This document shows positions 355 through 60,729 of a stretch of 64,000 nt of DNA, in pieces. Below the pieces are notes generated by a model. The model saw only the letters and a program-made list of their open reading frames with translations. It did no database searches and was not told where the DNA came from. Source of the DNA: Bacteroidales bacterium (lineage in GTDB: Bacteria; Bacteroidota; Bacteroidia; Bacteroidales; UBA932); contig JAFZOK010000013.1 of NCBI GenBank assembly GCA_017550655.1, forward strand, positions 372,001 to 436,000, in the 5' to 3' direction. Every line of letters begins with the position of its first letter. Positions within the stretch are counted from its first letter, which is position 1. Position numbers and translations under genes: made by a program.

Positions 355-375
355 CGCCCTAATTGATTCTCAGCG

Positions 376-1599
376 ATGGAGAAAGCTATACTGATAAGCG
401 CGGTCACTCCGGACATTACGGAACTTCAGGCAAACGAATACCTGGACGAGCTGGAATTCCTGGCCACCACCGCATCCATAGAGGGAGTGAAAAGGTTTAT
501 GCAGAGGCTGGACAGGCCCCTGTCGAGCACATACGTGGGTAAGGGAAAGCTTCAGGAAATCAAGGAATATGTCGCTGAGAACGAGATACATCTGGCAGTG
601 TTCGACGACGAGCTCACGGGTGCCCAGGTGAGAAATCTGGAAAAAGAACTCGGATGCTCCATTCTGGACCGCACAAGCCTGATTCTGGACATATTCGCAA
701 TGAGGGCAAAGACCGCCTACGCCAAAACCCAGGTGGAACTTGCACGCTACCAATACATACTCCCAAGGCTGACCGGAATGTGGAGCCACCTTGAAAGGCA
801 GAGGGGAGGACGCGGAACCAGAGGCGGTGCCGGAGAAAAGCAGCTGGAAACAGACCGCCGAATCGTAATGGACAAGATTTCCCAGCTCAAGGACCAGCTC
901 AAGAAGATAGACCGCCAGATGGCAACCCAAAGGTCCAACCGCGGAAAGATGGTCAGGGTATCACTCGTTGGCTACACCAACGTTGGCAAGAGCACCATAA
1001 TGAACCTTCTTTCCAAGAGCAATGTCTTTGCGGAAAACAAACTCTTTGCAACTCTGGATACCACTGTAAGAAAGGTAGTTATAGACAACACTCCTTTCCT
1101 CCTCAGCGATACTGTAGGATTCATCAGGAAACTTCCTCACCAGCTTGTGGAATCATTCAAGAGCACTCTGGACGAGGTAAGGGAAGCCGATATCCTGCTT
1201 CACGTTGTTGACGTGTCCCATCCTAACTTTGAAGACCAGATCAAGGTTGTAAAGCACACCCTTGAGGAAATCGGGGCGGGCAACAAGCCGGTATTCATGG
1301 TATTCAACAAAATCGACGCCTACAAATTCACCCCTAAGAGCGAATTCGACCTCAGCGAAGACCGTCCTGGAAAAATATCGCTGAGACAGCTTGAAGAATC
1401 CTGGGTGGCAAAGGAAAATTCCCCGGCAATCTTCATCTCCGCCAAGGAAAAGATCGGGATAGACAAATTAAGAAACGACCTCTATAAGATGGTTGGTGAA
1501 ACCATTAGAGGCCGTTACCCGTTTACCGGATTTCTCTGGCAGAACTTCGATGAAGAAGATCTTACTTCTTGCACCAGCCCTTCAGGAACTCGCGGTTAA
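376..1599 (+). CDS. hflX: Ribosome-associated GTPase HflX
   Basis: 407 residues, close to the E. coli length of 426. The N-terminal HflX domain includes VGKGKLQEI and the glycine-rich [16 protein letters not shown] linker, followed by a helical segment and a TRAFAC-class G domain. G1 is G199YTNVGKST207, G3 is DTVGF at 245-249 and G4 is NKID at 311-314. HflX binds the large ribosomal subunit and in known cases splits stalled or heat-damaged 70S ribosomes in the cytoplasm. The ATG at 376 shares bases with a CTCAGCGAT word (369-377). The 3' end overlaps the convergent frdB by 38 bases, so the last 12 codons are antisense to frdB codons. Confidence 0.95.
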
Positions 1600-2392
1600 G
1601 TCTTGCGATGTGGCTTACTGATACGTGCTTAGGGCACTCCATCTCGCAAGCCCTTGTGTTGGTGCAAGTTCCGAATCCAAGCTCGTCCATCTTGGCTATC
1701 ATGTTCATAGCCCTTCTGGTGCTCTCTACCTTGCCCTGAGGAAGCAGAGCCAGTGAGCTGACCCTTGCTCCGATGAACAACATAGCGGATCCGTTCTTGC
1801 AGGTTGCAACGCATGCGCCGCATCCGATGCAGCTGGCTGCGTCCATACTCTCATCTGCCTTCTCCTTTGGAATAGGGATGTTGTTGGCGTCCTGAGCGGC
1901 ACCTGTACGGACATCCACAAATCCTCCGGCCTGCATAATCTTGTCAAGAGCGCTGCGGTCTACCACAAGGTCCTTGATTACAGGGAAGGCTGCGCTTCTC
2001 CAAGGCTCGATTGTGATAGTGCTGCCGTCCTTGAACTTACGCATGAACAGCTGGCAGGTAGTAACCTCGTTCTCCGGTCCGTGAGCCCTACCGTTGATGT
2101 ACAGGGAGCAAGCTCCGCAGATACCCTCGCGGCAGTCGTGGTCAAAGCTGATAGGAAGAGCCTTTCCAGCAGCCTTTGCCTCCTTGTATTTCTCGCCTGA
2201 GCAGGCCTCGCCGCCTTCGCATCCCTTGCTGAATGCAACAGGATCTGAGTTCTGGTGAACCAGCTGGTCGTTGAGAATATCAAGCATCTCAAGGAAAGAA
2301 GAATCAGGACTTATGTTGTCAACCTTATAAGTCTCGAAATGCCCCTTTGTCTTGGCATTTTTCTGTCTCCAAACTTTTATAGTGAATTTCAT
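1562..2392 (-). CDS. frdB: Fumarate reductase/succinate dehydrogenase iron-sulfur subunit (type B)
   Basis: 276 residues. The [2Fe-2S] domain has C87REGICGAC95 with a later Cys at 113. The C-terminal ferredoxin domain has [11 protein letters not shown] and [13 protein letters not shown] for the [4Fe-4S] and [3Fe-4S] clusters. The subunit passes electrons between FrdA and the membrane quinone site in fumarate respiration. The usual Bacteroidales protein, as I recall it, runs almost directly from the LNEQL helix to FDHDCREG; here roughly 28 extra residues (about 47-80, with Cys58, Cys64 and a lysine-rich helix) intervene. The gene starts 3 bases after the frdA stop, so the two are co-transcribed. 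SdhB is an equivalent name. Confidence 0.93.
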
Positions 2393-2395
2393 AGA

Positions 2396-4345
2396 CTAGT
2401 CTTTATAATTTCTGGTTGCTACTTTAATTCCTTCATATACAAGAGGTTCCTTGTGGAGTTCAGGCTCCTGGCCCTCTCCCTTGTATTCCCATGCGGAAAC
2501 ATACATGAAGTTCTCGTCGTCACGCTTGGCCTCGCCTTCCTCGGTCTGCATTTCCTCTCTGAAGTGGCCTCCGCAGCTCTCCCTTCTGTTGAGGGCATCG
2601 CGAGCCATAAGGTCTCCGATCTCGAAGAAGTCCGCAAGTCTCATAGCCTTCTCGAGCTCCTGGTTAAACTCTCCGTTTTCACCGGAAACGTAAACGTTCT
2701 TCCAGAATTCTTCCTTCAGGCGCTTGATTTCAACGATAGCTTTCTTGAGGCCTTCCTCTGTACGGCCCATTCCGACATATTCCCACATGATGTTGCCGAG
2801 TTCCTTGTGGATTTCGTCAGGAGATTTCTTTCCCTTGATTGCAAAGAGTTTTGCAATGCGGTCCTTGACAGCCTTCTCTGCCTCGTCGAACTCAGGGGCG
2901 TTGATGTCTGTCTTAGGCTCCTGGATCTTCTTTGCCAGATATCCGCCGATTGTGTAAGGCAGGATGAAATATCCGTCTGCCAGACCCTGCATAAGAGCGG
3001 ATGCTCCGAGGCGGTTTCCGCCGTGGTCTGAGAAGTTCGCCTCTCCGATTGCAAACAGGCCAGGAATGGTTGTCTGCAGATCGTAGTCAACCCAGAGTCC
3101 ACCCATTGTGTAGTGGATGGCAGGATATATCATCATCGGCTCCTTGTAGGCGTTAACATCGGTGATTTCCTCATACATCTGGAAGAGGTTGCCGTATCTC
3201 TCCCTGATCTTGTCTTCTCCAAGGCGTTCGATAGCGGTCTTGAAGTCCAGGAACACGGCCTTTCCGGTCTCGTTCACGCCATAGCCGGCGTCGCATCTTT
3301 CCTTAGCAGCGCGTGAAGCAATATCACGAGGAACAAGGTTTCCGAATGCAGGATATCTTCTTTCCAGATAATAGTCTCTGTCCTCTTCAGGAATCTGGGA
3401 TGCCTTGATCTCTCCCTTGCGGAGTTTGAGCACGTCTTCCATCTTCTTTGGAACCCAGATACGGCCATCATTTCTCAGCGATTCGCTCATAAGGGTGAGT
3501 TTGCACTGCTGAGTGCCGTGAACCGGTATACAGGTAGGGTGGATCTGGGCAAAGCAAGGGTTTCCGAAGTATGCTCCCTTCTTGTAGCACTGCCAAGCGG
3601 CTGAACCATTGGAGTTCATTGCGTTGGTAGAGAGGAAGTAAACGTTTCCGTAGCCGCCGGTTGCTATTACAACCGCATGGGCTCCGAATCTTTCGATTTC
3701 TCCGGTTGCGATATTACGTGCAATGATACCCTTTGCCTGGCCATTGATAAGTACCAGGTCTAGCATCTCGTGCCTTGGATAGCTCTTTACGCTTCCGTTC
3801 TTGATTTCCTTGTTCAGGGATGCGTATGCACCCAGAAGGAGCTGCTGTCCGGTCTGGCCCCTTGCGTAGAAGGTACGGCTAACCTGTGCGCCACCGAATG
3901 AACGGTTGGCAAGCAGTCCGCCGTATTCCCTTGCGAAAGGAACTCCCTGTGCAACGCAGTGGTCTATGATGAGGTTGCTCACCTCGGCAAGACGGTATAC
4001 GTTTGCCTCGCGGCTGCGGAAGTCTCCTCCCTTTACCGTATCAACGAACAGGCGATAGATGGAATCGTTGTCGTTCTGGTAGTTCTTTGCTGCATTGATA
4101 CCTCCCTGAGCTGCAATGGAATGCGCTCTTCTTGGGGAATCGCTGATGCAGAAGATTTTTACATTGTAACCCATCTCTCCGAGAGAGGCTGCGGCGGATG
4201 CTCCGGCAAGTCCCGTTCCCACAACAATGATCTCGAGTTTTCTCTTGTTGGCAGGGCTTACAACCTTGATTTCCGCCTTACGCTTCTTCCATTTTTCCGA
4301 CAGAGGACCGTCTGGAATATGGGATATAAGTTTTGTATCTGACAT
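2396..4345 (-). CDS. frdA: Fumarate reductase/succinate dehydrogenase flavoprotein subunit (type B)
   Basis: 649 residues from the ATG at 4343-4345; an upstream in-frame TTG at 4369 would add eight residues unlike the family, so the ATG is preferred. The FAD-binding Rossmann motif [19 protein letters not shown] is at about 41-59, the FAD-linking histidine is in HSIAAQGG (His75), the substrate region has QIHPTCIPV, and the C-terminal FAD motif is [17 protein letters not shown]. It reduces fumarate to succinate, or the reverse, at the inner face of the cytoplasmic membrane. Bacteroidales normally have the diheme cytochrome b gene just upstream. Here the upstream neighbour is a divergent DUF4251 gene, so the membrane anchor must be encoded elsewhere. 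Confidence 0.95.
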
Positions 4346-4507: not shown

Positions 4508-5107
4508 ATGAAAAAGATTTTCACCATCGCGATGTGCCTTCTGGCGGCCGTCCTGATATGCGTTCCTTCCTATTCGCAGAAGAAAAAAAAGGAATCCAGC
4601 AAGGAGAGAAAAGAGCGTATCGCCAAGATTACCAACGACGGGGCTGCCAAGAAAGATCTTTTCATCTTTATCACCAGAAGTTTCAACAAGAACAACAACT
4701 TCAACTTTAACTACAACACCATCAGTGCCGCTACCGCTGAATTTTATGTTGACCTGAAAAGAGACCGCATTTCCTGCTGCCTTCCGTTCACAGGCCTTTC
4801 AGACAGCAAGTCCAGACAGGCTTACAGCCTTGCCAACACCGATATCAGTATCATAGCCAACAACCAGATTACCACCATATTCGGAGGATGGAGCGAGAAG
4901 CAGAAAAGCTATATGTTCCAGAGCATTTTCTGGAACAATGATTCCGATACAGACTCCCAGGCCATCCAGATTACAATGACCCTTCAGGTATATCCTTCCG
5001 GCAAGGTTTACATTATGGTTGAAGTTCCGGGATTCGAGTCTGTATCCTACGAGGGAGAGGTTGACAACAGGCCATATCCGGATGATCCAAATCCTCTGAC
5101 AGAATAA
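4508..5107 (+). CDS. DUF4251 domain exported protein
   Basis: 199 residues. The ATG at 4508 starts a clear signal peptide (KKIFTIAMCLLAAVLICVPSYSQ); a TTG at 4433 in frame would put a long charged stretch before it and is rejected. After a lysine-rich linker comes the DUF4251 pattern: YNTISAATAEFYVDLKRDR, ISCCLPFTG, a middle strand block and a C-terminal beta pair (YPSGKVYIMVEVPGFESVSY). The family is largely confined to Bacteroidota, predicted periplasmic, of unknown function. A second member follows 11 bases downstream, so the two are probably one transcript. Confidence 0.8.
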   Translation: MKKIFTIAMCLLAAVLICVPSYSQKKKKESSKERKERIAKITNDGAAKKDLFIFITRSFNKNNNFNFNYNTISAATAEFYVDLKRDRISCCLPFTGLSDSKSRQAYSLANTDISIIANNQITTIFGGWSEKQKSYMFQSIFWNNDSDTDSQAIQITMTLQVYPSGKVYIMVEVPGFESVSYEGEVDNRPYPDDPNPLTE

Positions 5108-5118
5108 AGAAAAACAAT

Positions 5119-5677: not shown

Positions 5678-8089
5678 ATGCTCTCCAGACGGTTAATCAC
5701 ATCAATCGCCATTGCGGCCGCATTGCTTGCTCCGCAGCTTCTTTCCGCCCAGAAAACGGTAAACAAGTTTGATAAAAACAATCCATACACACACCTCATA
5801 CCCCAGCCCAAGGAAGTAATCTGCAACCTGGATGCAAACCCGTTCGTCCTGCAGAAAAACATAAAGATTGTTACCAATGTTCCTTATTTGTCCGGTTATC
5901 TTGCAAACCACCTGAAGAACCTGACAGGAGAAGACATAGGCATTATCTGGTGGGATAACTGGAAAGGCATTAAAAAAGCGGCAAAGAAAGGTCCGATAAT
6001 TCTCTTTCTGATAGCCGATAACGCTACCATTACCGGTAATGAATATAAGTTAAGGGTTCACGAGAACGAAATAGAACTTTACAGCAACGGTTACGAGGGT
6101 GCTATGTGCGGTATTCAGACCCTGTTTCAGCTGTTTCCTCCACAGGTCTATAATTTTGATAACAGGGATTATTCTACAATATGCTCCATTCCGGAAGGAA
6201 TCATAGACGATAAACCGGAGTTTTCCTACAGGGGTTTTGAACTGGATGTTTCAAGGACCTGGAGACCGGCTGAGGATATCTACAAGGTGCTGGACTGGAT
6301 GGCCTATCACAAGCTCAACAAGTTCCATTGGCATCTTACGGATGACCAGGGCTGGAGAGTGGAGATAAAGTCTCTTCCGCTGCTTACGGAAAAAGGTGCG
6401 TGGAGAGGACCGGAAGAAGTGATTCCTTCAAGTTTCGGAAGCGGGAACAAAAGATATGGAGGCTTTTATACCCAGCAGGAAATCAAGGATATAGTAAAGT
6501 ATGCCGAGGAAAGGGCCATCGAGATAATTCCTGAAATAGAAACTCCGGGGCACAGTGCAGCCGTTGCGGCAAGTTATCCTGAAATCCTCTGCGATTTTCC
6601 TGAAGACACATCGGTGAACAATACAGGATACAGCCGTGAAATCTGGTGTGTGGCAAAGGAAAGCAATTACGAGTTTATCGAGAAGATTATAAAGGAAATG
6701 TCCGAGATGTTTCCTTCCGGAATCATCAATATGGGAGGAGACGAAGTCAACCGCTTCAACTGGGAAAAATGTCCGGACTGCCAGGCGCTGATGAAAAAGA
6801 TGGGAATGACAAATTCCGAGCAGCTGCATTTCTATTTCGTGTCCAGGGTTAACCAGATAGCAAAGAAATACGGGAAGAAGATTGCCGGATGGGAAGAAAT
6901 AATGTATTCAGAAGACATAAAGGACAACTCTCTCATCTATGTATGGCACAGCAAGAAATGGGGTCCGATGGCCGTGCAGAACGGATTCGACTGCGTGATG
7001 CAGGCCGCGGAATATGTCTATCTGGATATGCAGCAGTCTCCACTGGAGAGAGGCCATAACTGGGCAAGAGTTATACCTCTGGATGTTATGTATTCATACG
7101 ATCCTATCGCCCTTGCTGCAGCTGGAAAAGACAGCGGAAAAGCAGCGTCCAACCTTGAACTTGCAAAGAAACATGTTAAGGGAGTGCAAGCCGGACTATG
7201 GGAAGAACTCGGAAACCGTCCGGAGAATTTTGTGGAATACCAGATGTTCCCAAGGCTTTGTGCCCTGGCGGAAACAGGATGGGGAACTTCCAGGACAATC
7301 GCAGACAGCGCAGCAAACTACAAGTATTTCTATGATAGGCTCTCGCAGGCTCATTTTGCAAGGCTTATGAATATGGGAATCCGCTTCAGGGTTCCATATC
7401 CGGAAGTGAAGGCGGAACGTGTTGCCTATACAAAAACGGATGTGCTCCGGGACGAGTCTTATATGCGCCCTTACAAGATCACTGTTACTCCACCGTATGA
7501 AGGAGCGGTTGTAAAGTACGCCATTGTTTCTCCGCAGACAGCAACGGACGGAATCAGGGGCCAGAAGGATACAACCAATTATAAGTATGTTTATACCGAG
7601 CCTATAATTACCAAGAATATAGCAAATTACAGGTTTGCTACTTTTGCCTCGGACACTCTCCATTCCATTGGAGTTGCAGTTTCAAACGTGCCGCTTCAGC
7701 CATTTGTAATCCAGCCTAAGATGTCTATCGAGACTAACATGAGATCATCGGAGAAAAACCTCAGCATTCTCAAGGAATATCAGGAAAACAAATACTGCAG
7801 GTTTGAAGGAAGGGCAAAGGCAGGAGACTATATCACATTCATATTCGACGAACCTGTGGAATGCTCTGTAATTGACATTCTGACAGGAAGGTCAAACGTG
7901 GATTTCTATGGTCTTACAGAAGGTTATGCTGAATACTCTGAAGATGGAGTAAACTACAAGGGCAAGACAGAAGTGGACTGCAGCCGCATAGTCCTGACTC
8001 CAAACACTAAAGTCAAGAGCGTAAGGATAACCGTGACAGGAGAAAGCGATGCCCAGAACTTCTTCCTTCCGCCACTGAAAATATACTAG
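5678..8089 (+). CDS. Beta-N-acetylhexosaminidase, glycoside hydrolase family 20
   Basis: 803 residues with a signal peptide (LITSIAIAAALLAPQLLSAQ). An N-terminal GH20b domain covers about 35-165. The TIM barrel carries GFELDVSRTWRP, FHWHLTDDQGWRVEIKS and PEIETPGHS, and the catalytic pair is D355-E356 in MGGDE. These enzymes remove terminal GlcNAc or GalNAc by substrate-assisted catalysis. About 230 residues of beta-rich sequence follow the barrel, probably a chitobiase C-terminal domain and a discoidin-like carbohydrate-binding domain. It follows the DUF4251 pair by 28 bases without a clear terminator. Exported, acting in the periplasm or at the cell surface on host or microbial glycans. Confidence 0.93.
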   Translation: MLSRRLITSIAIAAALLAPQLLSAQKTVNKFDKNNPYTHLIPQPKEVICNLDANPFVLQKNIKIVTNVPYLSGYLANHLKNLTGEDIGIIWWDNWKGIKKAAKKGPIILFLIADNATITGNEYKLRVHENEIELYSNGYEGAMCGIQTLFQLFPPQVYNFDNRDYSTICSIPEGIIDDKPEFSYRGFELDVSRTWRPAEDIYKVLDWMAYHKLNKFHWHLTDDQGWRVEIKSLPLLTEKGAWRGPEEVIPSSFGSGNKRYGGFYTQQEIKDIVKYAEERAIEIIPEIETPGHSAAVAASYPEILCDFPEDTSVNNTGYSREIWCVAKESNYEFIEKIIKEMSEMFPSGIINMGGDEVNRFNWEKCPDCQALMKKMGMTNSEQLHFYFVSRVNQIAKKYGKKIAGWEEIMYSEDIKDNSLIYVWHSKKWGPMAVQNGFDCVMQAAEYVYLDMQQSPLERGHNWARVIPLDVMYSYDPIALAAAGKDSGKAASNLELAKKHVKGVQAGLWEELGNRPENFVEYQMFPRLCALAETGWGTSRTIADSAANYKYFYDRLSQAHFARLMNMGIRFRVPYPEVKAERVAYTKTDVLRDESYMRPYKITVTPPYEGAVVKYAIVSPQTATDGIRGQKDTTNYKYVYTEPIITKNIANYRFATFASDTLHSIGVAVSNVPLQPFVIQPKMSIETNMRSSEKNLSILKEYQENKYCRFEGRAKAGDYITFIFDEPVECSVIDILTGRSNVDFYGLTEGYAEYSEDGVNYKGKTEVDCSRIVLTPNTKVKSVRITVTGESDAQNFFLPPLKIY

Positions 8090-8219
8090 AAACAGATTCA
8101 GGGTAGAGTATTTTGTGTAAAAATTCCAAGATTGTACATTACAATTCTAAGATTCACAATATTTTCAACGCAAAACAATTATTTTTTCCGAATAGCATAC
8201 ATCTTTTGGATCCTTACAC

Positions 8220-8227
8220 TATATTTG
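8220..8227 (+). promoter_or_regulatory. -7 promoter element of the AT-rich island
   Basis: TATATTTG matches TAnnTTTG and ends 26 bases before the ATG at 8254. The region 8090-8219 is very AT-rich with no gene in it. Confidence 0.55.
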
Positions 8228-8253
8228 CAAAGAACTGAACTGAAACAGGTGTT

Positions 8254-8499
8254 ATGGAAAGTATGTTAAAAAAAGACTTTGATTTCTTTCTTAACAATCA
8301 AAATGAATTGGTTAAGAAATATAACAATCAATATTTAGTGATTGTTAATCAGGTAGTGGTAGGTGCATATAATTCATTTGAAGAAGCGTTGAAAGAATCT
8401 GTCAAGGATCATGAAATAGGTACTTTCTTAATTCAAAAATGCACTTCTGGAGTGAGCGCTTATACCCAAACATTCCATTCAAGGGTTTCTTTTATCTAA
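8254..8499 (+). CDS. Small protein of unknown function, partner of the downstream protease
   Basis: 81 residues, no signal peptide and no membrane segment, so probably cytoplasmic. The pattern FFLNNQNELVKKYNNQYLVI, VNQVVVGAYNSFEEALKES and GTFLIQKCTSG suggests a small alpha/beta fold: a helix, two strands with a turn, a helix, then a strand. It is reminiscent of DUF5678-like proteins ('Y.G.yv.i.dgkvig...s..eA...'), but I cannot confirm this. Base composition is clearly lower in G+C than the flanking genes, as in the next gene, which starts 14 bases downstream; the two are one operon. Composition and isolation suggest horizontal acquisition as a unit. Confidence 0.65.
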   Translation: MESMLKKDFDFFLNNQNELVKKYNNQYLVIVNQVVVGAYNSFEEALKESVKDHEIGTFLIQKCTSGVSAYTQTFHSRVSFI

Positions 8500-8513
8500 G
8501 GCCGTAATTAAAT

Positions 8514-9065
8514 ATGGACAATAAAGTCAAGGCGTTGACTTACCACGGCAGGGGTATAGTCAATTGTATAGTATCTCCAGCTACGGTAAAGGATCCATTT
8601 TCTACAAAAAGCACTAATATATTGGGTATTTGGGATACTGGAGCAACTAACTCAGTCATAACTAAAGAGGTTGCAAAAGAACTCAATCTGAAGCCTATCG
8701 GCATGACCAAAGTCCGTGGAGTTCACGGAATAAAAGATGTTAACATATACTATGTAAATATTACTCTTAACAACAAAGATATTACTCTTAACACACAGGT
8801 TACTGAATGTGATGAGCTTTCTGATGACAATAAAGTTGGATTACTTATTGGTATGAACATTATCACACAAGGTGACTTTTCAATAACAAATTTCGGGGGT
8901 AATACTACTATGTCGTTCAGAGTTCCGTCTCTTCAGACTATAGATTATGTATCAGGACTTAAGAGCGGTTATCAGATTGTGAAAGACAAAGTTCCGGGAA
9001 GAAATGATCCATGTCCTTGCGGGAGTGGAAAAAAGTTTAAGCATTGCCACGGAAAGAATCTTTAA
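8514..9065 (+). CDS. Retropepsin-like aspartic protease with C-terminal SEC-C zinc motif
   Basis: 183 residues, no signal peptide. Residues about 12-140 form one retropepsin-type half-barrel: catalytic motif D41TGAT45, a hydrophobic strand, and the second-half signature GLLIGMNII at 109-117. A single D-T-G means it would act as a homodimer, as retroviral proteases do. After a short linker comes a SEC-C motif, [19 protein letters not shown], with Cys167, Cys169, Cys178 and His179 as zinc ligands; the same motif ends SecA and mediates contacts with partner proteins. A cytoplasmic protease with a docking zinc finger suggests regulated cleavage of a specific partner. It is AT-rich like its upstream neighbour. 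The domain calls are firm; the role is unknown. Confidence 0.85.
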
Positions 9066-9085
9066 TCGTGGCTAAAAGCTTCCAT

Positions 9086-9115
9086 ACCATATTTGGGCAT
9101 AATATGGTTATTTTT
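9086..9115 (+). terminator. Intrinsic terminator of the protease island
   Basis: ACCATATT (9086-9093) pairs perfectly with AATATGGT (9101-9108) around a 7-base loop, and a T run follows to 9115. It lies 20 bases after the protease stop codon and just before the end of the convergent gene at 9120. Confidence 0.7.
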
Positions 9116-9119
9116 CTCC

Positions 9120-10337
9120 TCATTGTTTAAGTCCCTGATAGGCGGAGCGGAGAACTTCGTCTATGTATTTGTTGAAAAGGTTCAGGTGCTTTTTGTCAAG
9201 GGTGCCTTTACGGAGGTCTTCTATTATCTGCTCTGATTCTTCAAGTATCTTGTCTTCTGCCACTTTAAGTTTCTGGCCATAGCCGGTTCCTTCATTATTA
9301 TAGAGGATTCCGTAGTGGAAATACTTGCTGCCGTTGCCTCTTGTGATAGGGAAAAGCTCCTTTTTCAGATTCAATACCTGGTCACAAACCCAGCAGTTGT
9401 TCTTCTTCACCTTGGATGAGCCCTTGACAAGAGTGGAAGGAATCATCTTAGGATATTTCATAAACACCGGAACCATTACTGCAAGAGGGCCGTAACCCAT
9501 TCCGCACCAATAGATTGTATTGGCTGCATCTTCTCCTTCCTTTACTCCCTGGAAGATGGAAATGGCACTAGTGGATTTCCTTGGAATGAAGTCCTGGTCC
9601 ATAAACCATCCGTTTGTTTTCTCGGCGATGTCGGAGTTTCTAAGATCTGCCTTGAGAACGGAATGGTAGAAAGATCTTGAAAGCTGGTCCATTATCCATT
9701 CAGGGGTAAACTTTACTCCTTCCTTGTATGCCTTGTCCACAATGTCCGTTGCATTGCCCCATCTGACATAACCCATACCCTTGTCTTCCTTTCCGCTTCT
9801 GGAATAGTTAGTCCAGATAAGATATCCTTCAGGAGCAAGCTTCTCATCGTTGGCGTCGAATTTTACCCAAGTCCTTGTATTTACCTCATAGTAAGCGGCT
9901 CCGCCTTCTGCATCAATCACTCCAAAATTTGCTTCAACGGCAAGTGGCTTTCTGATAGTGTCCAGAAGTGTCTCGAAATCCTTGAGCGTTTTGCAAAGTG
10001 CCAGAGCCTTGTACATAAGCACTCCTTCTCCATCCTGAAGATCCTTTTCTTCCGGAATTGCAAGGTTGTAGCTGGCGGTGTTCATTATGCAGAATCCGAC
10101 TTCGTTGCTTCCTGCCCATACTTCTCCGCCTTTATGCGGGGAATTCACAAGTCCCACAAAGCCGTACTTTTTTCCCTTGATGTATTCAAGACGGTTATTG
10201 AGCTCTCCGGTATCGCGGTTTTTCCACATCAGAGGTCTTCCGTCTTTAGTGCATTTGCCTGTGAATATCGCTGAGGTGCAGGCAAATACATCTACACTTA
10301 GCATAGATATAAGGATAATTGCAAGAAGCTTTTTCAT
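9120..10337 (-). CDS. Secreted Ntn-hydrolase of the C45/acyltransferase type
   Basis: 405 residues. The signal peptide KKLLAIILISMLSVDVFA is followed directly by C20TSAIFTGKCTKDGRPLMWK and NRDT. A cysteine exposed at the new N terminus and followed by such a segment is the hallmark of the Ntn-hydrolases of peptidase family C45 (isopenicillin-N acyltransferase and carcinine hydrolase relatives). Cys20 would be the nucleophile, acting on an amide or peptide bond in the periplasm. Later segments include GSNEVGFCIMNTASYN and GGAAYYEVNTRTWVKFDAND. Choloylglycine hydrolase (C59) is the alternative but fits less well. It follows ruvB by 28 bases and could be read through from it. Confidence 0.7.
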   Translation of the reverse strand: MKKLLAIILISMLSVDVFACTSAIFTGKCTKDGRPLMWKNRDTGELNNRLEYIKGKKYGFVGLVNSPHKGGEVWAGSNEVGFCIMNTASYNLAIPEEKDLQDGEGVLMYKALALCKTLKDFETLLDTIRKPLAVEANFGVIDAEGGAAYYEVNTRTWVKFDANDEKLAPEGYLIWTNYSRSGKEDKGMGYVRWGNATDIVDKAYKEGVKFTPEWIMDQLSRSFYHSVLKADLRNSDIAEKTNGWFMDQDFIPRKSTSAISIFQGVKEGEDAANTIYWCGMGYGPLAVMVPVFMKYPKMIPSTLVKGSSKVKKNNCWVCDQVLNLKKELFPITRGNGSKYFHYGILYNNEGTGYGQKLKVAEDKILEESEQIIEDLRKGTLDKKHLNLFNKYIDEVLRSAYQGLKQ

Positions 10338-25432: not shown

Positions 25433-25929
25433 TTTCAGTTATTGCAGCGGTGGCGGATGGCGGTGCCATAGGACGGAAAAACTCTCTTCTCTGGCATATC
25501 GGCGAAGACTTGAAATATTTCAAGAAGATCACGATGGGCCATCCTGTGATAATGGGAAGAAAAACCTTCGAGAGCATAGGCCGTCCGCTTCCTGGAAGAA
25601 AGAATATCGTGGTTTCAAAATCCGCTAGTTTCAACAATCCAAATGTTGAAAAGGCGGAAGATCTTGACGGGCTTCTCAAATCGCTGAGGAGAAAAAGAAA
25701 GGAAGAATACTTTGTAATAGGAGGTGCCAGCATTTATGCCTCGGCGATGCAATATGCTCATAAATTGTATATTACAAGGATCTATTCCAAGGCGGAAGGA
25801 GCAGATGCCTTCTTCCCGGAAATAGATGAAAAGGCCTGGACCGTTATCGAGAAATCATCCGTCCTTCACGACGAAGAAAACAACATAGATTTTCAGTTTA
25901 TAGTTTATGGCAGAAAAGCAAAGAGATAG
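25429..25929 (+). CDS. folA: Dihydrofolate reductase
   Basis: 166 residues. [36 protein letters not shown] (active-site acidic residue at about Glu26), [20 protein letters not shown] and the NADPH-binding FVIGGASIY are standard. It reduces the dihydrofolate made by ThyA. The start overlaps the thyA stop by 4 bases (ATGA), and the following transporter gene begins 23 bases before its end, so thyA-folA-transporter form one operon. Confidence 0.97.
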
Positions 25930-50189: not shown

Positions 50190-50250
50190 TTTCTCTCAAA
50201 TTGTCTGCTATTTAGATATCGCGGAGGCCGAAAAGTAAAATTGTTGGTTT

Positions 50251-52684: not shown

Positions 52685-52691
52685 CATCGCG

Positions 52692-54476
52692 ATGAAAAAT
52701 ATCAGGAACTTTTGCATTATTGCACATATAGATCACGGCAAATCCACACTTGCGGACAGGATGCTTGAGGTGACGAATACCGTTACAAGCCGCGAGATGG
52801 AGGCTCAGGTGCTGGATTCGATGGATCTGGAGAAGGAGAAGGGCATCACAATCAAGAGCCACGCCGTCCAGATGAAATACACCAAGGACGCCCAGGAATA
52901 TACCCTCAATCTTCTGGACACTCCGGGACACGTGGATTTCTCTTACGAGGTTTCCCGTTCCATTGCGTCTTCAGAAGGGGCTCTTCTGGTTGTGGATGCC
53001 ACCCAGGGCATCCAGGCCCAGACCATCTCCAACCTTTATCTTGCTCTGGACCACGACCTTACGATTATCCCGGTGCTCAACAAGATAGACATGGAGGCTG
53101 CCGAGCCCGAGCTTGTAAGGGACCAGGTCTGCGACCTTCTTGGTTGCGACCAGAGCGAGGTTCTTATGTGCAGCGCAAAGACCGGAGAGGGCGTTCCGGC
53201 AATTCTGGATGCCATTGTAGACAGGATTCCTGCTCCGGTGGGAGATCCTGACGCTCCGCTCCAGGCCCTGATATTCGACTCTGTCTTCAATCCGTTCCGC
53301 GGCATCATCGCATACTTCAAGGTGGAAGCCGGAAGCATCCACAAGGGAGAGAAGGTAAAGTTCTTCAACACCGGGATGGAATACACTGCAGACGAGGTTG
53401 GAACCATGGGCCTAAAACTGAATCCGAAACCTGAAATCGGCTGCGGCAACGTGGGCTACATCATAAGCGGAATCAAGAGTGCCGTTGAGGTAAAGGTTGG
53501 CGATACCATTACTTCCGTCCAGAATCCTTGCAAGGAGGCAATCGCCGGATTCGAGGAGGTTAAGCCAATGGTCTTTGCCGGCGTATATCCCGTTGAGACA
53601 GACGAATACGACCAGCTGAAAGTTTCCCTTGAAAAGCTTCAGCTCAACGATGCTTCCCTGGTGTTCGAGCCAGAAAGCTCCATGGCCCTTGGCTTCGGAT
53701 TCCGCTGCGGCTTCCTCGGCCTTCTGCATCTGGAGATTGTCCAGGAAAGGCTCTACAGGGAGTTCGACATGGACTGCATCACCACGGTTCCGAACGTTTC
53801 CTTCAAGGTCTATACTACAGACGGCCAGTGCCTGGATGTCCATAACCCTTCCGGACTTCCGGAGGTTACGATGATAGACCATATTGAGGAGCCTTATATC
53901 AGGGCCCAGGTTATCTCTAAGGCAGATTTCTTCGGTCCAATTATGAAGCTCTGCCTGGACAAGAGGGGCGCCCTCGTAAGCCAGCACTATATCACCACAG
54001 ACCGTGTAGAGCTGAACTTCGACCTTCCGCTCAGCGAGATAGTATTTGATTTCTATGACAAGCTCAAGAGCATTTCCAAGGGTTACGCTTCCTTCGATTA
54101 TCACATCACGGACTACCGTCCGGCACAGCTTGTGAAACTGGATATCCTCCTTAACGGAGAACAGGTGGACGCCCTTTCATCGCTGATCCATAGAGATCAC
54201 GCGTACGACTTCGGAAGGCGTATGTGCGAAAAACTCAAGGACCTTATTCCAAGACAGCAGTTTGATATTGCTATCCAGGCTGCAATAGGTGCAAAGATCA
54301 TCGCCAGGGAAACCGTCCGCCAGGTAAGAAAAGACGTTACTGCCAAGTGCTACGGAGGTGATATCTCAAGAAAGCGCAAACTCCTTGAAAAGCAGAAGAA
54401 GGGAAAGAAACGCATGCGCCAGGTAGGCCAGGTCCAGGTGCCTCAGAGTGCCTTCATGGCCGTCCTCAAACTCTAA
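52692..54476 (+). CDS. lepA: Translation factor LepA (EF4)
   Basis: 594 residues. G1 A11HIDHGKST19, G3 D76TPGH80, G4 NKIDM, with the canonical histidine present, unlike fusA2. Domain layout is that of EF4, with the LepA-specific C-terminal domain ([40 protein letters not shown]). It acts on ribosomes, with roles reported in back-translocation and 30S biogenesis. A short gap of 20 bases follows to the acyltransferase gene, perhaps one transcript. Confidence 0.97.
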
Positions 54477-54496: not shown

Positions 54497-55540
54497 ATGA
54501 AGAAGAATCTTCCGGCATATGCATCAGACACTATCAAGTATTTGAGGTTTGTTCTGATCATTATGGTTGTTTATAGTCATAGCATGCCGAATGCTGACAG
54601 CTCTTTTAAGGCATTCTATATGGTTCACGACATAGTTGTGGTCAATTTGTTCAGCGTTGCCGTTCCCTTGTTTTTCTTTTTTAGCGGATATCTGTTTTTC
54701 TTAGGCGTGGAAAGATTTGGTTTCGGCGTATATAAATCAAAGCTCAAGAAACGGGCGAAAACATTGCTTCTGCCATATATAATCTGGTCGCTGGCAATAA
54801 TCGCATTGCTGTTTGTTTTTCAGAAACTGTTTCCTGGTCTTTTTTCCGGAACGTTTCAGAACATTTCGGAATTTGGCATACGGGATTTCTGGAACGCCCT
54901 GTGGGTTGCCCCCATAGAGTATCAGTTCTGGTTCCTTAGAGATCTGTTCATAGCCATACTGCTGACCCCCATAATCTGGCTTCTGATAAAATATCTTCAC
55001 ATACTGCCGATTTTGGCTCTCTGCGCCCTGTATCTTTTGCGCATAATTATTCCGATATCCGGCTTTGGTGTCGTATGCCTCTTCTTCTTCTCTTTGGGAG
55101 CGTTTTTCTCGATTCACAAGATTGATTTCTTCGGGTTCTGTGACAGATGTTTTTATGTGCTTATGGCCCTTTCTATTGTTTTGTTTGCAGCCAGCGTGGC
55201 CATAAAAGAGGGCAATCCGTATGATGTCTTTATCCATCGTATGAGCGTTATTGCCGGAGTGTTCTTTATGATATCGGCAGGCTTGAGGTTGAGGCGGTTG
55301 TTAAGCAGGCTTCCGGAAGTGTTCTATGATTCCACATTCTTTATCTACGCATTTCACGCAATTCCTATAGTCTTGTTTATGAGAATATTGGAGAAGGCGG
55401 GATTCTTGTCTTGCGAGAGGAATACCATTATTGCCTTTTTTGTGGTGCCGGTTGTCATTATCGCGATAAGCATATTGCTGTACCATATTCTTAGAAAGAT
55501 ATTTCCACGTTTCACCAGCCTCATTACAGGAGGAAGATAG
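54497..55540 (+). CDS. Acyltransferase family 3 membrane protein
   Basis: 347 residues with about ten membrane helices. The N-terminal motif YLRFVLIIMVVYSHS and the second-loop FFFFSGYLFF with following LPYIIWS, WFLRDLFIAI and FFIYAFHAIPIVL match the acyltransferase 3 family (OafA/WecH type), which acetylates or otherwise acylates sugars in envelope glycans; the active histidine would be His28 in YSHS. The target is unknown; nearby kdsB and glycosyltransferases fit a role in surface polysaccharide. Confidence 0.87.
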   Translation: MKKNLPAYASDTIKYLRFVLIIMVVYSHSMPNADSSFKAFYMVHDIVVVNLFSVAVPLFFFFSGYLFFLGVERFGFGVYKSKLKKRAKTLLLPYIIWSLAIIALLFVFQKLFPGLFSGTFQNISEFGIRDFWNALWVAPIEYQFWFLRDLFIAILLTPIIWLLIKYLHILPILALCALYLLRIIIPISGFGVVCLFFFSLGAFFSIHKIDFFGFCDRCFYVLMALSIVLFAASVAIKEGNPYDVFIHRMSVIAGVFFMISAGLRLRRLLSRLPEVFYDSTFFIYAFHAIPIVLFMRILEKAGFLSCERNTIIAFFVVPVVIIAISILLYHILRKIFPRFTSLITGGR

Positions 55541-56549: not shown

Positions 56550-57722
56550 ATGAAAAGATTTTTGCTTTTGGGCCTCGCCACTTTGTTCTGCCTGCAAATC
56601 TTTGGGCAGGGAAACACGTCCAATATCAATTACTACGGCCATATTTACGTGCAGTCAGAGATAAACGGCCAGCCTGCAAATCTTGCGTTTGACACCGGCT
56701 CTCCTTACACCTGCCTCGACAGCACCTTCTTTGCCGGATGCACTTACAAATACAAAAACATGGGCAAGGCACAGATGGGCGGCACCGGGAATAAAAAGGA
56801 ATTTGTCCGCATCATCATCGGAGAGCTTACATATACCGCCGGTGGAAAAGAATATACAAGCAAAGTCTCTCCAATCTTTCAGCTTAAGCCAATTATCGGC
56901 GATTATGCAGACGGGCTGCTGGGCATTTCGGATTTTGGCGGAAAGATTATTTCCATAGATTACAGGAACGAGAAGATGACCTTTCTTGATAAGCTGGATA
57001 AAACTGACATAGAGGGATTTACCAAGATCGCTATCAGATATGCAAACAACAGGATCTATGTTCCTGTAACCGTTACCGTGAGCAAGGATAAGGTCATAAC
57101 CGGGGAAGCTCTCGTAGATCTTGGAAGCGGGGGAACCGTTACCTTCACAGCCGCGGTTGCAAAACAGCATTCCCTTAAAGACATCTCCCCTGTTTTGTTT
57201 TATGAAATGGGGCACGGAGGTGTTGGTGGAGAGGCGGCTGGATGCTATTTCCGGGCAGAAAAGGCAAGCGTCGGCCCTTTCAGCCTCAGCGATATCCTTA
57301 TGGATTACAGCCTGAATACCGGCGGAGCGCTTGCCGCTAGTGAATATATCGGCATTGTAGGAAACGATTTCTGGGAACGGTTTGACATAATAATGGACCT
57401 GCCGGGCAAATCCCTGTATCTCAGGCCTAACCAAGACTACGGAAAGCCGTTTAAATGCCCGGTCGAAGGCTTTGCCTTTACAGACCGCAGCAAGACTCTC
57501 GGATGCTGGGTAGTCAACTGCATCATCAAAGATTCCAACGCGGAAAGGGCCGGTCTTAAAAACAAGGACCAGATTCTGACAATCAACGGAAGAGATGTAA
57601 AGACAATAAGTCTTGACGAGCAGAAGACCCTCTTCGATGAAATGACATCCGCAACCCTTACAATCCGTCGCGGAGACTCAACTCAAACCATCTCCTTCGA
57701 CTTCGACGAACCAAAACTGTAA
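56550..57722 (+). CDS. Exported aspartyl protease with PDZ domain
   Basis: 390 residues from the ATG at 56550; a TTG 6 bases upstream is rejected. A signal peptide (KRFLLLGLATLFCLQIFGQ) is followed by two retropepsin-like half domains fused in tandem. The first has LAFDTGSP with the catalytic Asp; the second has ALVDLGSGGTVTF, where the canonical T of D-T-G is Leu. A PDZ domain (about 305-385, WVVNCIIKDSNAERAGLKNK and DQILTINGRDVKT) ends the protein. This architecture occurs widely in Bacteroidota and is predicted periplasmic. Whether the DLG half is active is uncertain. Confidence 0.85.
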   Translation: MKRFLLLGLATLFCLQIFGQGNTSNINYYGHIYVQSEINGQPANLAFDTGSPYTCLDSTFFAGCTYKYKNMGKAQMGGTGNKKEFVRIIIGELTYTAGGKEYTSKVSPIFQLKPIIGDYADGLLGISDFGGKIISIDYRNEKMTFLDKLDKTDIEGFTKIAIRYANNRIYVPVTVTVSKDKVITGEALVDLGSGGTVTFTAAVAKQHSLKDISPVLFYEMGHGGVGGEAAGCYFRAEKASVGPFSLSDILMDYSLNTGGALAASEYIGIVGNDFWERFDIIMDLPGKSLYLRPNQDYGKPFKCPVEGFAFTDRSKTLGCWVVNCIIKDSNAERAGLKNKDQILTINGRDVKTISLDEQKTLFDEMTSATLTIRRGDSTQTISFDFDEPKL

Positions 57723-57727
57723 TTTCT

Positions 57728-59041
57728 TTACACTCCAATTAGTTCTTCTGCAAAGCGGGTGTAGTTGGTCTGTGCATCCCATTCTTCCTTCCAGTTGATG
57801 TAGCAGTTCTGCTTCATCTGGGTGTGGATTTCCCCCGGAAGGAGGATATATTCAACGATTTGGTTTTTAAGATTTTCTGCGGTTATGTCCGCATCAACGA
57901 TATAACCTACCGGGCAGTTGCGGAAGAGTTCCTTAACGCCGCCCACGTTGGTTGCGATAACAGGAATACCGTAGCTCATGGCCTCCATAATTGAAACCGG
58001 AATGCCTTCGCTTCTGCTAGCAAGAATGAACAGGTCCGCCCCTTCATTCTTGTAGAATTCCAGGATTTCATCGTGAGGTTTTGAGCCCTTGAATTCTATG
58101 TCTGGATCTTTTGCCTCTTCCTTAAGCCGGGTTAGCATATTGCCGCCGCCAAAATGGGTGTAGGTTATCCTGTCAAAGCCCCGTTGCCTGATTTTATCCA
58201 TTGCGGATTTGTCTTCTTTAATCAGCTGTATGGCTTTGATAACCAGGTCTATTCTCTTGAGCGGAATGGTGTTGGCGCAGCCAACGATTCTGAAGGTTCT
58301 GTTTTCCTCAGCGATTGCATTATGGAAGTTTTCATCGTGATGCGTGGAGCCAAGATGCCAGACCTCGATGATTTTAGGGCAAGGATTGTAGTTCTTCTTG
58401 ATGTAGTTCATTCCGTCGTATGAAACGGGAATGGCATAATCTGTATGCTCCATTATCATATCGCGGAAAGGAAGATATCCCTTTGCCTCCTCGTAAAGGT
58501 CAGAGCCGTGAAATCTGGCGCAGAACATAGGCATTATTTCCACATTCGGTCTTACGAGTTTCTTCAGGAACGGGATGAGCATTGCGCTTTTGTCCCCCCA
58601 GTAGAAATAGATCTTGTCGGCGAAGCTGCATTCCCTTACAACTTCTTCCATCAGCTTTTTGTTTCCCAGTATTGTCCTGAGCATCAGGAAGTAATTGAAG
58701 AAGATATGAAGGCGCTTGCCAATACCTGCCTTCTTGTTTCTCTTTCCGAATACGGCACGGAAAAACTCCTTTGTGGCAAAGAAGAACGGGGCCGTGTTGA
58801 AGAGGCCTTTTCTTATTAATCCCTTTTTGTCCTTGTGGTCAAACGGAAGAAGCGGAGTTGCAATGTCCACGCTTGAGGGATGAGACCTCATTTCCCCGTC
58901 CGGGCGGTAGAGGGGAAAGACGGTTATCCTGTGGAACTGTTCTGCGAGATATGGAACCTCGTCCGCAAGGAAAGTCTCGCCCCCTCCAAACGGATATGTG
59001 TTGGAGAAAAGGACGAGCTTAACTCTGTGCGGATCGTGCAT
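57728..59041 (-). CDS. Glycosyltransferase, GT4 family
   Basis: 437 residues from the ATG at 59039-59041, chosen because a longer frame would run into the upstream gene. KLVLFSNTYPFGGGETF is the N-terminal Rossmann glycine loop; the donor domain carries RIVGCANTIPLKRIDLVIKA, ILASRSEGIPVSIMEAMSYG with the EX7E donor motif, and VIATNVGGVKELF. It transfers sugars from nucleotide donors with retention. It lies 11 bases after the OmpA-TPR gene and 5 bases from the convergent protease stop. Confidence 0.92.
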   Translation of the reverse strand: MHDPHRVKLVLFSNTYPFGGGETFLADEVPYLAEQFHRITVFPLYRPDGEMRSHPSSVDIATPLLPFDHKDKKGLIRKGLFNTAPFFFATKEFFRAVFGKRNKKAGIGKRLHIFFNYFLMLRTILGNKKLMEEVVRECSFADKIYFYWGDKSAMLIPFLKKLVRPNVEIMPMFCARFHGSDLYEEAKGYLPFRDMIMEHTDYAIPVSYDGMNYIKKNYNPCPKIIEVWHLGSTHHDENFHNAIAEENRTFRIVGCANTIPLKRIDLVIKAIQLIKEDKSAMDKIRQRGFDRITYTHFGGGNMLTRLKEEAKDPDIEFKGSKPHDEILEFYKNEGADLFILASRSEGIPVSIMEAMSYGIPVIATNVGGVKELFRNCPVGYIVDADITAENLKNQIVEYILLPGEIHTQMKQNCYINWKEEWDAQTNYTRFAEELIGV

Positions 59042-59052
59042 TTCCGAGTTGT

Positions 59053-60729
59053 TTACTGCAGGGTGGCGAACTCCCTGTCGTTGTCTATGCGCTCTTCGTA
59101 AGACATCTTCTCGAAAGACTTGACGAGTTCGTTTTCGCAAGTGGTCACATCTCCCTTTCTGGCGGCAATGATTGCCCTGAGGTAGGACTCATCCGGATCG
59201 TATTCCTTCTTGAGGACTTTCAGGGCTTCATCGTTTCTTCCCTTAAGGAGAAGTGCAAGTCCGTGGGTGAAACCATCCGTTCCGTCGAGAACCTCGAGGG
59301 CTCCGTCATAGTCTCCGTCCTGGATAAGGAGGGATCCCAGATTTTCCTTGGCGGCGGATATCATTTCTCCATTTTCTCCCTGAGCCATGTAGAAGTATTC
59401 AGCCGCTTTGTCCGCATTGCCCTTCTGGAGTTCTACAACTCCAAGGTTGTTGTAATAGCCTGCGGTCTTGTCGGTTATCCTGTTAAGGAAGTTAAGGGCC
59501 TCGGCCGGCTTGTTCTGCTGAAGGGCAAGGGCCGCAAGGTTGTTGAGAGCCCTCTGGCTGTTGAATCTCTTTACTGCCTGGTTGTAGATGGAAGCCTTCT
59601 TTGCGGCATCCTCAAACAGGTTGGCGCTGTAGAGCAGGCCTTCTTCGGTGAGGCGGTCGTCAGAAGTCTCGATCATCTGCTTGAGCTCGTCGTCTGTGAA
59701 GTTCTTCTTGTCTATCTCGGCGACTATGCGGCTGCGCCTTAACTGAGGGAGAACCTTGTTGTTGAGGGTCTGGAAAACCTGGGACATATTTCTGATTTCC
59801 CTCTCCCTTACAACTGGATCTGAATACATTGAAAGAACCCTGATTATGAGATCCTTATCCTCGATGTTGGACTCTTCCACAAGCTTCTTGAATCCTTCCC
59901 AGTCTTCTCCCTTCTCCTCAACGGTAACGTCCATATCAACGTCCGCCCTCTTGGAGATGGTCTTGTCGTAAGCGGCCTTGGCGCTCTTGGCTCTCTGGAC
60001 GGAAAGCTTGTTGTTGTTGTCTTCAGGTCCTTCAGGGGAAGCGTATCCTATGATCTTTCCCTTCTTTACGGTTTTCTTAGAGTCTTTCTTGGCATCGCTG
60101 AGGAATTTTTCAAAAGCCTTTACCTCATCGGAATTCAGGCGTGCGGCCTTTACATCAGCCTTGTTGACATCGTAGAGAATTTGCGTTTCCACAGTCTCCG
60201 TGCTTTCCATTTCGTAGTTATCTTTTTCGAAGAAAGGAATGCCATTGGTCTGTGCAAGCATTGAAGTGCATATTGTTCCCTCGGCGATCTTGAATGGCAG
60301 AGGGTATTCCCAACTCTTGGATTTGCTTGCGTTATAGATGGTTACGGCAAGCTGGAGAACAGCCTTCTCCATTCCCGGCTTGTACTGGAAAACCACGTCG
60401 CGCTTTACGGCACTGGCGCTCTTGTAAGGAATGGCGGTGTAGTTGTCCCTGATCTTTTCTCCCTGCATCCAGAAATCCGGTGCGTTTTCGGTTATTCCGT
60501 TGTAAACCAGCTGAGGCGTAATCTTCAGATATGCGTTTGGCACAAAATAATTGGCCGGAAAACTAATAGTATAGGTGGCCTTGATCTGTCCGGCTTTGCA
60601 CTCCAGGATTTTTGGAGTGCAGTCTGTCTTTACCATTGACGCGAGTTTTGCCATCTGCTGAGGGTTTGCGCAGAAAGCTGCGATTACGGCCGTTGCCGCA
60701 ATGAGAGTGGTTTTGAAAAATCTCTTCAT
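59053..60729 (-). CDS. OmpA-like domain and TPR periplasmic protein
   Basis: 558 residues with a signal peptide (RFFKTTLIAATAVIAAFCA; a Cys-type lipobox is not clear). An N-terminal beta-rich region (about 30-170) precedes an OmpA-like peptidoglycan-binding motif (GKIIGYASPEGPEDNNNKLS, VQRAKSAKAAYDK) interrupted by a charged linker, then TPR units in the C-terminal 170 residues (YYNNLGVVELQKGNADKAAE, YFYMAQGENGEMISAAKENL). Such proteins tie peptidoglycan to outer-membrane assemblies. Between kdsB (13 bases) and the glycosyltransferase. Confidence 0.75.
   Translation of the reverse strand: MKRFFKTTLIAATAVIAAFCANPQQMAKLASMVKTDCTPKILECKAGQIKATYTISFPANYFVPNAYLKITPQLVYNGITENAPDFWMQGEKIRDNYTAIPYKSASAVKRDVVFQYKPGMEKAVLQLAVTIYNASKSKSWEYPLPFKIAEGTICTSMLAQTNGIPFFEKDNYEMESTETVETQILYDVNKADVKAARLNSDEVKAFEKFLSDAKKDSKKTVKKGKIIGYASPEGPEDNNNKLSVQRAKSAKAAYDKTISKRADVDMDVTVEEKGEDWEGFKKLVEESNIEDKDLIIRVLSMYSDPVVREREIRNMSQVFQTLNNKVLPQLRRSRIVAEIDKKNFTDDELKQMIETSDDRLTEEGLLYSANLFEDAAKKASIYNQAVKRFNSQRALNNLAALALQQNKPAEALNFLNRITDKTAGYYNNLGVVELQKGNADKAAEYFYMAQGENGEMISAAKENLGSLLIQDGDYDGALEVLDGTDGFTHGLALLLKGRNDEALKVLKKEYDPDESYLRAIIAARKGDVTTCENELVKSFEKMSYEERIDNDREFATLQ

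Follow-up and report, generated by a model that had tools for sequence, protein, structure and literature searches.

What keeps the nine-base word CTCAGCGAT in 18 exact copies, spread over both strands and several reading frames, within one short piece of a bacterial genome? The piece, hereafter the window, is a stretch of 64,000 nucleotides from a Bacteroidales bacterium (positions 372,001 to 436,000 of contig JAFZOK010000013.1, assembly GCA_017550655.1), and an earlier note made from its letters had taken the repetition as a mark of selection on DNA, naming a Chi-like recombination signal, an uptake sequence and a segregation or methylation site as candidates. Here we report that the word belongs to a genuine DNA signal, present throughout the genome and rapidly changing from one species to the next. 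In our judgement the motif has an even chance of being a self-DNA signal that works like DNA uptake sequences, with sequence-biased DNA uptake or exchange as its cause.

The motif in the window and in the genome

Recounting the window gave exactly the 18 copies of CTCAGCGAT that had been described, ten on the plus and eight on the minus strand, the first at 369 and the last at 60094-60102. The word averages 0.66 copies (maximum 3) in 100 dinucleotide shuffles of the window, and an order-3 Markov model predicts 0.41; the observed count exceeds these two baselines about 27- to 44-fold, a range that takes in the 37 fold originally given. The genome that contains the window, G000 (2.256 Mb, 42 contigs, 88% complete), holds 207 forward and 200 reverse copies, 407 in all, against 1 + 1 for the reversed word, so that the genome-wide count proposed as a check also comes out in favor of a genuine excess.

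The nine-base unit itself is real, but it is just the most frequent form of a motif that is longer and degenerate, made up of ATCGCNGAG and an A-rich tract. In the whole of G000, ATCGCNGAG occurs 505 + 540 = 1,045 times (reversed control, 8 + 13 = 21), and its 41 copies in the window divide into 18 CTCAGCGAT, 14 CTCGGCGAT, 5 CTCTGCGAT and 4 CTCCGCGAT. The word counts that define the motif were taken from the window and from 464 kb of G000 (window included). Among single-base variants, TCG and GA are almost invariant and the middle base is free, mismatches to ATCGCTGAG being clustered at the first, middle and last positions. Downstream of ATCGCYGAG (152 copies) there is an A-rich tract of four positions in which A makes up 43–48%, compared with a background of 26%; the A fraction downstream is 0.50 for copies read with the gene (0.31 upstream) and 0.49 for copies outside genes. 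An iterated weight matrix, with the threshold set to allow at most 15% random matches, converged on cATCGCtGAKgaaaa and found 626 sites in the 464 kb. The near copies mentioned earlier exist as well, although they number seven instead of six and differ at the first base of TCAGCGAT (4139, 19307, 20581, 31063, 34639, 42247 and 54179). A palindromic companion, ATCGCGAT, is also enriched, with 10 occurrences in the window. A repeat or mobile element was considered and rejected, as the flanks of the window copies share nothing beyond the A-tract.

The occurrences in the window are as follows; the strand of a motif copy is the one on which CTCNGCGAT reads.

369-377, plus, CTCAGCGAT, overlapping the ATG at 376 of open reading frame 376-1599 (HflX-type GTPase domains)
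1102-1110, plus, CTCAGCGAT, exact match
1377-1385, minus, CTCAGCGAT, exact match
3474-3482, plus, CTCAGCGAT, exact match
10267-10275, minus, CTCAGCGAT, exact match
14150-14158, plus, CTCAGCGAT, exact match
14233-14241, minus, CTCAGCGAT, exact match
16551-16559, minus, CTCAGCGAT, exact match
25680-25688, minus, CTCAGCGAT, exact match
30561-30569, plus, CTCAGCGAT, exact match
33686-33694, plus, CTCAGCGAT, exact match, in mutS
35689-35697, minus, CTCAGCGAT, exact match, in mutS
37206-37214, plus, CTCAGCGAT, exact match
38182-38190, plus, CTCAGCGAT, exact match
40269-40277, minus, CTCAGCGAT, exact match
57285-57293, plus, CTCAGCGAT, exact match
58307-58315, plus, CTCAGCGAT, exact match
60094-60102, minus, CTCAGCGAT, exact match
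6587-6595, plus, motif variant CTCTGCGAT
9621-9629, plus, motif variant CTCGGCGAT
12475-12483, plus, motif variant CTCTGCGAT
13893-13901, minus, motif variant CTCCGCGAT
15828-15836, plus, motif variant CTCGGCGAT
21796-21804, plus, motif variant CTCTGCGAT
22842-22850, plus, motif variant CTCGGCGAT
24058-24066, minus, motif variant CTCTGCGAT
25740-25748, plus, motif variant CTCGGCGAT
27621-27629, plus, motif variant CTCCGCGAT
27860-27868, minus, motif variant CTCGGCGAT
30269-30277, minus, motif variant CTCGGCGAT
30356-30364, plus, motif variant CTCCGCGAT
35296-35304, plus, motif variant CTCGGCGAT
39208-39216, plus, motif variant CTCGGCGAT
40188-40196, minus, motif variant CTCTGCGAT
40702-40710, minus, motif variant CTCGGCGAT
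44417-44425, plus, motif variant CTCGGCGAT
45243-45251, minus, motif variant CTCGGCGAT
48986-48994, minus, motif variant CTCGGCGAT
50218-50226, minus, motif variant CTCCGCGAT
51583-51591, plus, motif variant CTCGGCGAT
60280-60288, plus, motif variant CTCGGCGAT
4526-4533, unstranded, palindromic companion ATCGCGAT
13011-13018, unstranded, palindromic companion ATCGCGAT
14306-14313, unstranded, palindromic companion ATCGCGAT
19164-19171, unstranded, palindromic companion ATCGCGAT
22346-22353, unstranded, palindromic companion ATCGCGAT
23886-23893, unstranded, palindromic companion ATCGCGAT
40976-40983, unstranded, palindromic companion ATCGCGAT
52686-52693, unstranded, palindromic companion ATCGCGAT
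55460-55467, unstranded, palindromic companion ATCGCGAT
61503-61510, unstranded, palindromic companion ATCGCGAT

The copy placed by the earlier note at the hflX start is thus indeed there. The gene names given alongside the copies were borne out in part: when ten window proteins were run against Pfam, seven agreed with or fitted the expected names (hflX-like GTPase, fumarate reductase flavoprotein, mfd-like protein, dihydrofolate reductase, MutS, class II D/K/N tRNA synthetase and YqeY), and three had no family at 1e-10. Judged by MutS, the closest named loci come from the bins UBA3709 (Bacteroidales, 82% identity) and RUG13464 (Bacteroidia, 88%), and the organism is accordingly regarded as a member of the Bacteroidales.

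Maintenance at the level of DNA

When synonymous codons were shuffled 100 times in the 370 called genes sampled from G000, ATCGCNGAG was observed 200 times against a mean of 26.9 (maximum 40), about sevenfold, and CTCAGCGAT 77 times in coding DNA against a mean of 6.3 (standard deviation 2.3, maximum 13). The palindrome ATCGCGAT behaves similarly in the sampled genes, with 68 occurrences against 12.0 (palindromes counted twice in both figures), and so does the corresponding motif of another species, G034, described below, with 234 in genes against 14.3. In the sampled G000 genes, the coding strand carries 105 copies of ATCGCNGAG and the opposite strand 95, in all three phases on both (phases 0/2/1: 63/29/13 and 54/25/16), phase 0 being favored; the enrichment is therefore not confined to one reading frame, as the spread over frames and strands seen in the window had indicated. 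Outside called genes the motif is denser than within them: 24 of the 152 copies of ATCGCYGAG in G000 fall in the 9.3% of the DNA that is not called as genes, and 89 of 323 copies of CTRTCGNGA in G034 fall in 11.4%.

The conservation of the motif was assessed by aligning the window to sister species and comparing intact ATCGCNGAG with composition-matched control words, a stricter control keeping TCG. Five of the seven sister species that share the motif display extra conservation, about twice that of matched words: G028 (23 of 34 intact; control 37%, stricter 45%), G020 (28 of 41; 34%, 38%), G032 (21 of 41; 21%, 24%), G016 (18 of 30; 25%, 32%) and G026 (15 of 41; 21%, 27%; p 0.019). Among motif-poor relatives there is no extra conservation (G036, 1/29 (5%); G018, 1/32 (8%); G061, 1/29 (9%)). 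Because the motif occurs on both strands and in all frames, exceeds the codon-shuffled expectation and is conserved beyond control words, these data support selection or drive on the DNA itself, in agreement with what had been proposed from the window.

Dialects across the genus

The comparison set consisted of 39 genomes of one genus. CTCAGCGAT itself is present in 1 to 625 copies in 36 same-genus relatives, many of which have hardly any, and in 0 to 39 copies in 24 genomes from other families of the order. ATCGCNGAG reaches 592–1,058 copies (controls 11–36) in ten genomes (G000, G032, G027, G031, G020, G028, G016, G026, G004 and G003), and G013 has 359. Stretches from 23 species, including G000, were surveyed for dialects, and several species without CTCAGCGAT proved to carry another word instead. 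One of these, YTRTCGNGA plus an A-tract, occurs 626–1,612 times in 12 other genomes (reversed controls in parentheses): G034 1,612 (278), G010 1,495 (166), G009 1,074 (224), G024 998 (174), G007 978 (235), G001 919 (137), G015 914 (151), G006 830 (178), G011 755 (277), G022 731 (216), G012 682 (192) and G017 626 (187). In G034, two poorly conserved bases separate the core CTRTCGNGA from the A-tract downstream; at CTGTCGGGA (156 copies) A accounts for 55–72% at five positions, and a palindrome, CTGTCGCGACAG, is present as well. The sample from G029 favors CTCCGCGATA and ACTATCGGGA, those from G018 and G061 contain chiefly ATCGCGAT, and no clear motif was recognized in the 80 kb sampled from each of G014, G019 and G002. 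A mutS tree was built that covers 30 of the 39 genomes (G005, G008, G011, G013, G025, G027, G031, G035 and G062 being left out). On it strong ATCGCNGAG (at least 300 copies), the dialect of one clade, maps as a single change, and strong YTRTCGNGA (2.5 or more times its control) as four.

Two side observations concern the distribution of such words. In G008 and G035 the reversed control outnumbers YTRTCGNGA about 2.5-fold (197 vs 77 and 204 vs 82, respectively), as if the word were avoided. Other Bacteroidales loci of at least 12 kb yielded only unclear enriched words, such as GCATATGC in L036 and ATCGGCC in L048 and L086, which might reflect codon effects or represent additional iterated sequences.

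Strand and spacing

Polarity relative to replication was examined in G034, a single contig with a sign change of the guanine–cytosine (GC) skew along it, from which 24 stretches (480 kb) were used. For CTRTCGNGA, the G-rich strand has 164 copies and the other strand 159 (ten self-overlapping palindromes counted on both strands), and relative to genes the counts are 122 vs 112. Chi sites are short, oriented, over-represented words; the motif resembles them in being short and over-represented and differs from them in lacking a replication-strand bias, and it likewise lacks the strong polarity of the FtsK polar sites (KOPS). This neutrality speaks against a Chi-like or FtsK-like role, and that reading was rejected.

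The motif is spaced nearly at random or a little more evenly than that (variance/mean in 5-kb bins: 1.07 in G000, 0.78 in G034). Pairs within 120 bp, considered as possible terminator-like arrangements, are barely more frequent than random, 19 vs 12.4 in G000 and 26 vs 23.2 in G034, and are chiefly inverted (14 of 19 and 24 of 26, respectively; 14 of 16 in G034 without the ten self-overlapping palindromes). One stretch of G034, L241 (G034:C1:1320001-1340000; GC 0.364), has 3 copies where the mean is about 13.5 per 20 kb, and is an O-antigen type locus with an O-antigen ligase, glycosyltransferases and an MBOAT protein. Separately, short gaps between co-directional genes in G034 hold long palindromes such as ATATCTGTCGCGACAGATAT, and the motif density in these gaps is 2.8 per kb vs 0.56 in genes.

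A possible signal of the uptake type

Copy number, a core plus an AT-tract, strand neutrality and dialects all match uptake sequences, and among the candidates first listed for the window the closest fit is the uptake type; neither a Chi-like signal nor one for segregation is supported, the sites being strand-neutral. The DNA uptake sequences (DUS) of Neisseriaceae, with eight variants following phylogeny, likewise comprise hundreds to thousands of short copies and form dialects among species (PMC3630211); here the sequence and the phylum differ, no pilus ATPase was found, and uptake is inferred. The uptake signal sequences (USS) of Pasteurellaceae resemble the motif in their 9-bp core, copy number (1,465 cores in Haemophilus influenzae) and AT-tracts, which aid uptake (PMC7811141), and differ in having two tracts where the motif has one main tract, and in a reported bias to gene ends (PMC2346458). 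A minor pilin is the proposed USS receptor (PMC12616744). In Riemerella anatipestifer, two adjacent genes, RS04915 and RS04920, with a CarboxypepD_reg/DUF5689 pair, are reported to be essential for transformation (PMC8459023). We found no uptake sequence in Bacteroidota in the open-access full-text literature, and four spellings of the motif, searched as whole words, were printed in no open-access paper found.

If the motif works in this manner, a DNA-binding component of an import or exchange route would prefer motif-bearing DNA, and the DNA that enters the genome by recombination in cells of the species would be enriched in motif-bearing alleles, so that copies would build up wherever sequence constraint permits. 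As the specificity of the binder drifted, the genome would slowly be rewritten, giving dialects in sister species. The motif would be read by a cell-surface receptor.

A candidate surface operon

For the ATCGCNGAG dialect only, a candidate receptor complex could consist of a BACON lipoprotein, two secreted nucleases, a putative outer-membrane protein and a DUF5689 lipoprotein, encoded on contig 21 of G000 (locus L267) by an operon-like run of five genes:

gene 1, BACON protein, 846 aa, with a lipoprotein-like start
gene 2, BACON plus Endonuclease_NS protein, 390 aa
gene 3, endonuclease/exonuclease/phosphatase, 365 aa
gene 4, 7041-9983, 980 aa with a CarboxypepD_reg domain, putative outer-membrane protein
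gene 5, DUF5689 protein, 336 aa, taken as a lipoprotein

As in the Riemerella pair, a CarboxypepD_reg protein stands next to a DUF5689 protein, the likeness being at the level of domains only. The DUF5689 protein matches the NCBIfam 'M949_1556 family lipoprotein' weakly (66 bits vs a cut-off of 475), and searches of PDB sequences with it and with the 980-aa protein returned nothing useful. G029 has the same five-gene order, judged by length and first residues. Orthologues of the 980-aa protein (at least 66% identity) exist in 15 of the 39 genomes, the same 15 that have a short (332–360 aa) DUF5689 frame; longer DUF5689 proteins occur in six operon-less genomes, two of them (G011 and G017) YTRTCGNGA genomes. 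A distant outer-membrane homologue in G010, also a YTRTCGNGA genome, was rejected as a counterpart, since by its neighbors' length and first residues it does not lie in a nuclease operon. The 980-aa protein of G000 shares 91% identity with its G020 counterpart but only 78% with the one from G028, the opposite of MutS (G028 97%, G020 94%), a pattern suggestive of fast or mosaic evolution.

Whether the operon has anything to do with the motif is, to us, evenly balanced: it might instead scavenge extracellular DNA as food while another gene reads the motif, a possibility compatible with the other explanations. Two nucleases and surface lipoproteins suit scavenging, and the second dialect exists without the operon. 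Yet all 11 genomes with at least 359 ATCGCNGAG carry the 980-aa protein, and the 24 non-carriers have 6 to 134; among the latter, G036 (whose sample has a lower GC, 0.39) and G033, with 120 and 98 copies, group with eight strong genomes in one clade (support 100/99), whose internal branching order the mutS tree does not settle.

Several observations weigh against the uptake explanation or against the part of the operon in it. All 12 YTRTCGNGA genomes lack the operon, which consequently cannot be a general reader, only a candidate receptor for the ATCGCNGAG dialect, and another reader would be needed in those genomes if the model holds. Four carriers have few ATCGCNGAG (G018 104, G029 170, G061 141, G062 83), and on the tree the operon–motif link amounts to one concordant contrast of two, which is not significant. 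PF00437, the type II/IV secretion or pilus ATPase, scored above the cut-off in none of the 39 genomes (31 have weaker matches), other pilus genes not having been searched; since the search for this ATPase yielded nothing above the cut-off, we do not class the motif with the pilus-based systems. ComEC and HHH_3 proteins, found in 38 and 39 of the 39 genomes, are almost universal and hence uninformative, being present also where there is no clear motif, and the ComEC of G000 is only 357 aa long (L271, 5463-6536, minus strand), mostly Competence domain. The bias to gene ends reported for Pasteurellaceae is absent, the motif being evenly distributed across gene deciles in both G000 and G034. Apart from L241, the motif-poor stretches are not clearly foreign; L209 has, by inspection, ordinary and Sus-like genes. 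Copies read against the gene have a weak A-tract in G000 (A 0.36 downstream vs 0.30 upstream), and the enriched palindrome ATCGCGAT has no counterpart in known uptake sequences. Finally, of the seven sister species sharing the motif, G003 was borderline and not significant (10 of 36 intact; control 16%, stricter 20%; p 0.051), and neither was G004 significant (12 of 41; 20%, 24%; p 0.1). As a side observation, relatives of G000 likewise show short open frames at ComEC.

Alternative explanations

The motif could be a chromosome-maintenance signal that is read inside the cell, Chi-like, tied to FtsK polarity or bound by a nucleoid or replication protein, which we regard as unlikely, if the better of the alternatives to uptake considered in this section. 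Abundance, even spread and conservation would fit such a role, E. coli Chi is similar in length and number, and a DNA-binding protein acting as a dimer could account for the palindromes and inverted close pairs. However, polarity is a feature of Chi and FtsK sites, and the motif favors neither a replication strand nor a gene orientation; an essential chromosome signal would not be expected to change its specificity inside a single genus; and the copies are too numerous and too evenly spread to be parS- or matS-like.

Less probable again is a highly iterated methyltransferase site of the kind known from cyanobacteria as HIP1 (highly iterated palindrome), propagated and preserved through repair directed by methylation, or through a similar mutational ratchet, and without a role in uptake. 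HIP sites occur about once per kb and are replaced by alternate sequences in some relatives (PMC4390886), as seen here; both ATCGCGAT and CTGTCGCGACAG of G034 are palindromic, and the pattern of mismatches in ATCGCTGAG, with TCG and GA nearly fixed, would also be in keeping with it. The dominant ATCGCNGAG, however, is asymmetric, with a mainly one-sided A-tract, whereas HIP1 extensions preserve the palindrome (PMC4390886), and methyltransferases of the two families searched do not track the motif: the C5 family PF00145 is in 13 of the 39 genomes and was not found in the motif-rich G016, G028, G031, G027, G003 and G034, and the N6/N4 family PF01555, above the cut-off in 16, was not found in G034, G020, G028, G031, G026 and G003. 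These motif-rich genomes are bins of 80–96% completeness. Neither of the two families searched turned up in G034, G028, G031 and G003, and the earlier suggestion of a methylation site is not supported as far as these families go.

That the motif arises as a side effect of nucleotide composition or of the use of codons or amino acids, for which only the preference for phase 0 in genes would speak, is scarcely credible; this reading was rejected together with chance, given the dinucleotide and synonymous shuffles, the latter of which already refutes it for CTCAGCGAT, the reversed word at chance level, the greater density outside called genes and the many same-genus species nearly devoid of the motif.

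Implications

To our knowledge, uptake-type sequences with dialects are otherwise found only in Pasteurellaceae and Neisseriaceae, both of which use type IV pili. A more far-reaching proposal, which we make tentatively and think rather doubtful, is that Bacteroidales possess a pilus-independent form of sequence-specific DNA recognition and import, in which a surface lipoprotein, an outer-membrane protein and nucleases would read a nine-base species-specific signal. If true, such reading would limit the exchange of genes between species in the gut, along a route that has nothing to do with pilin receptors. An uptake-type signature in rumen and gut Bacteroidales, in which no pilus ATPase was found, would imply an independent origin of self-specific DNA exchange, based on different machinery. 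As the 39 genomes present strong, changed, weak and absent dialects, the cause of such motifs, uptake drive or selection, can be tested by comparison, and a known self-signal could aid genetic access to intractable gut species.

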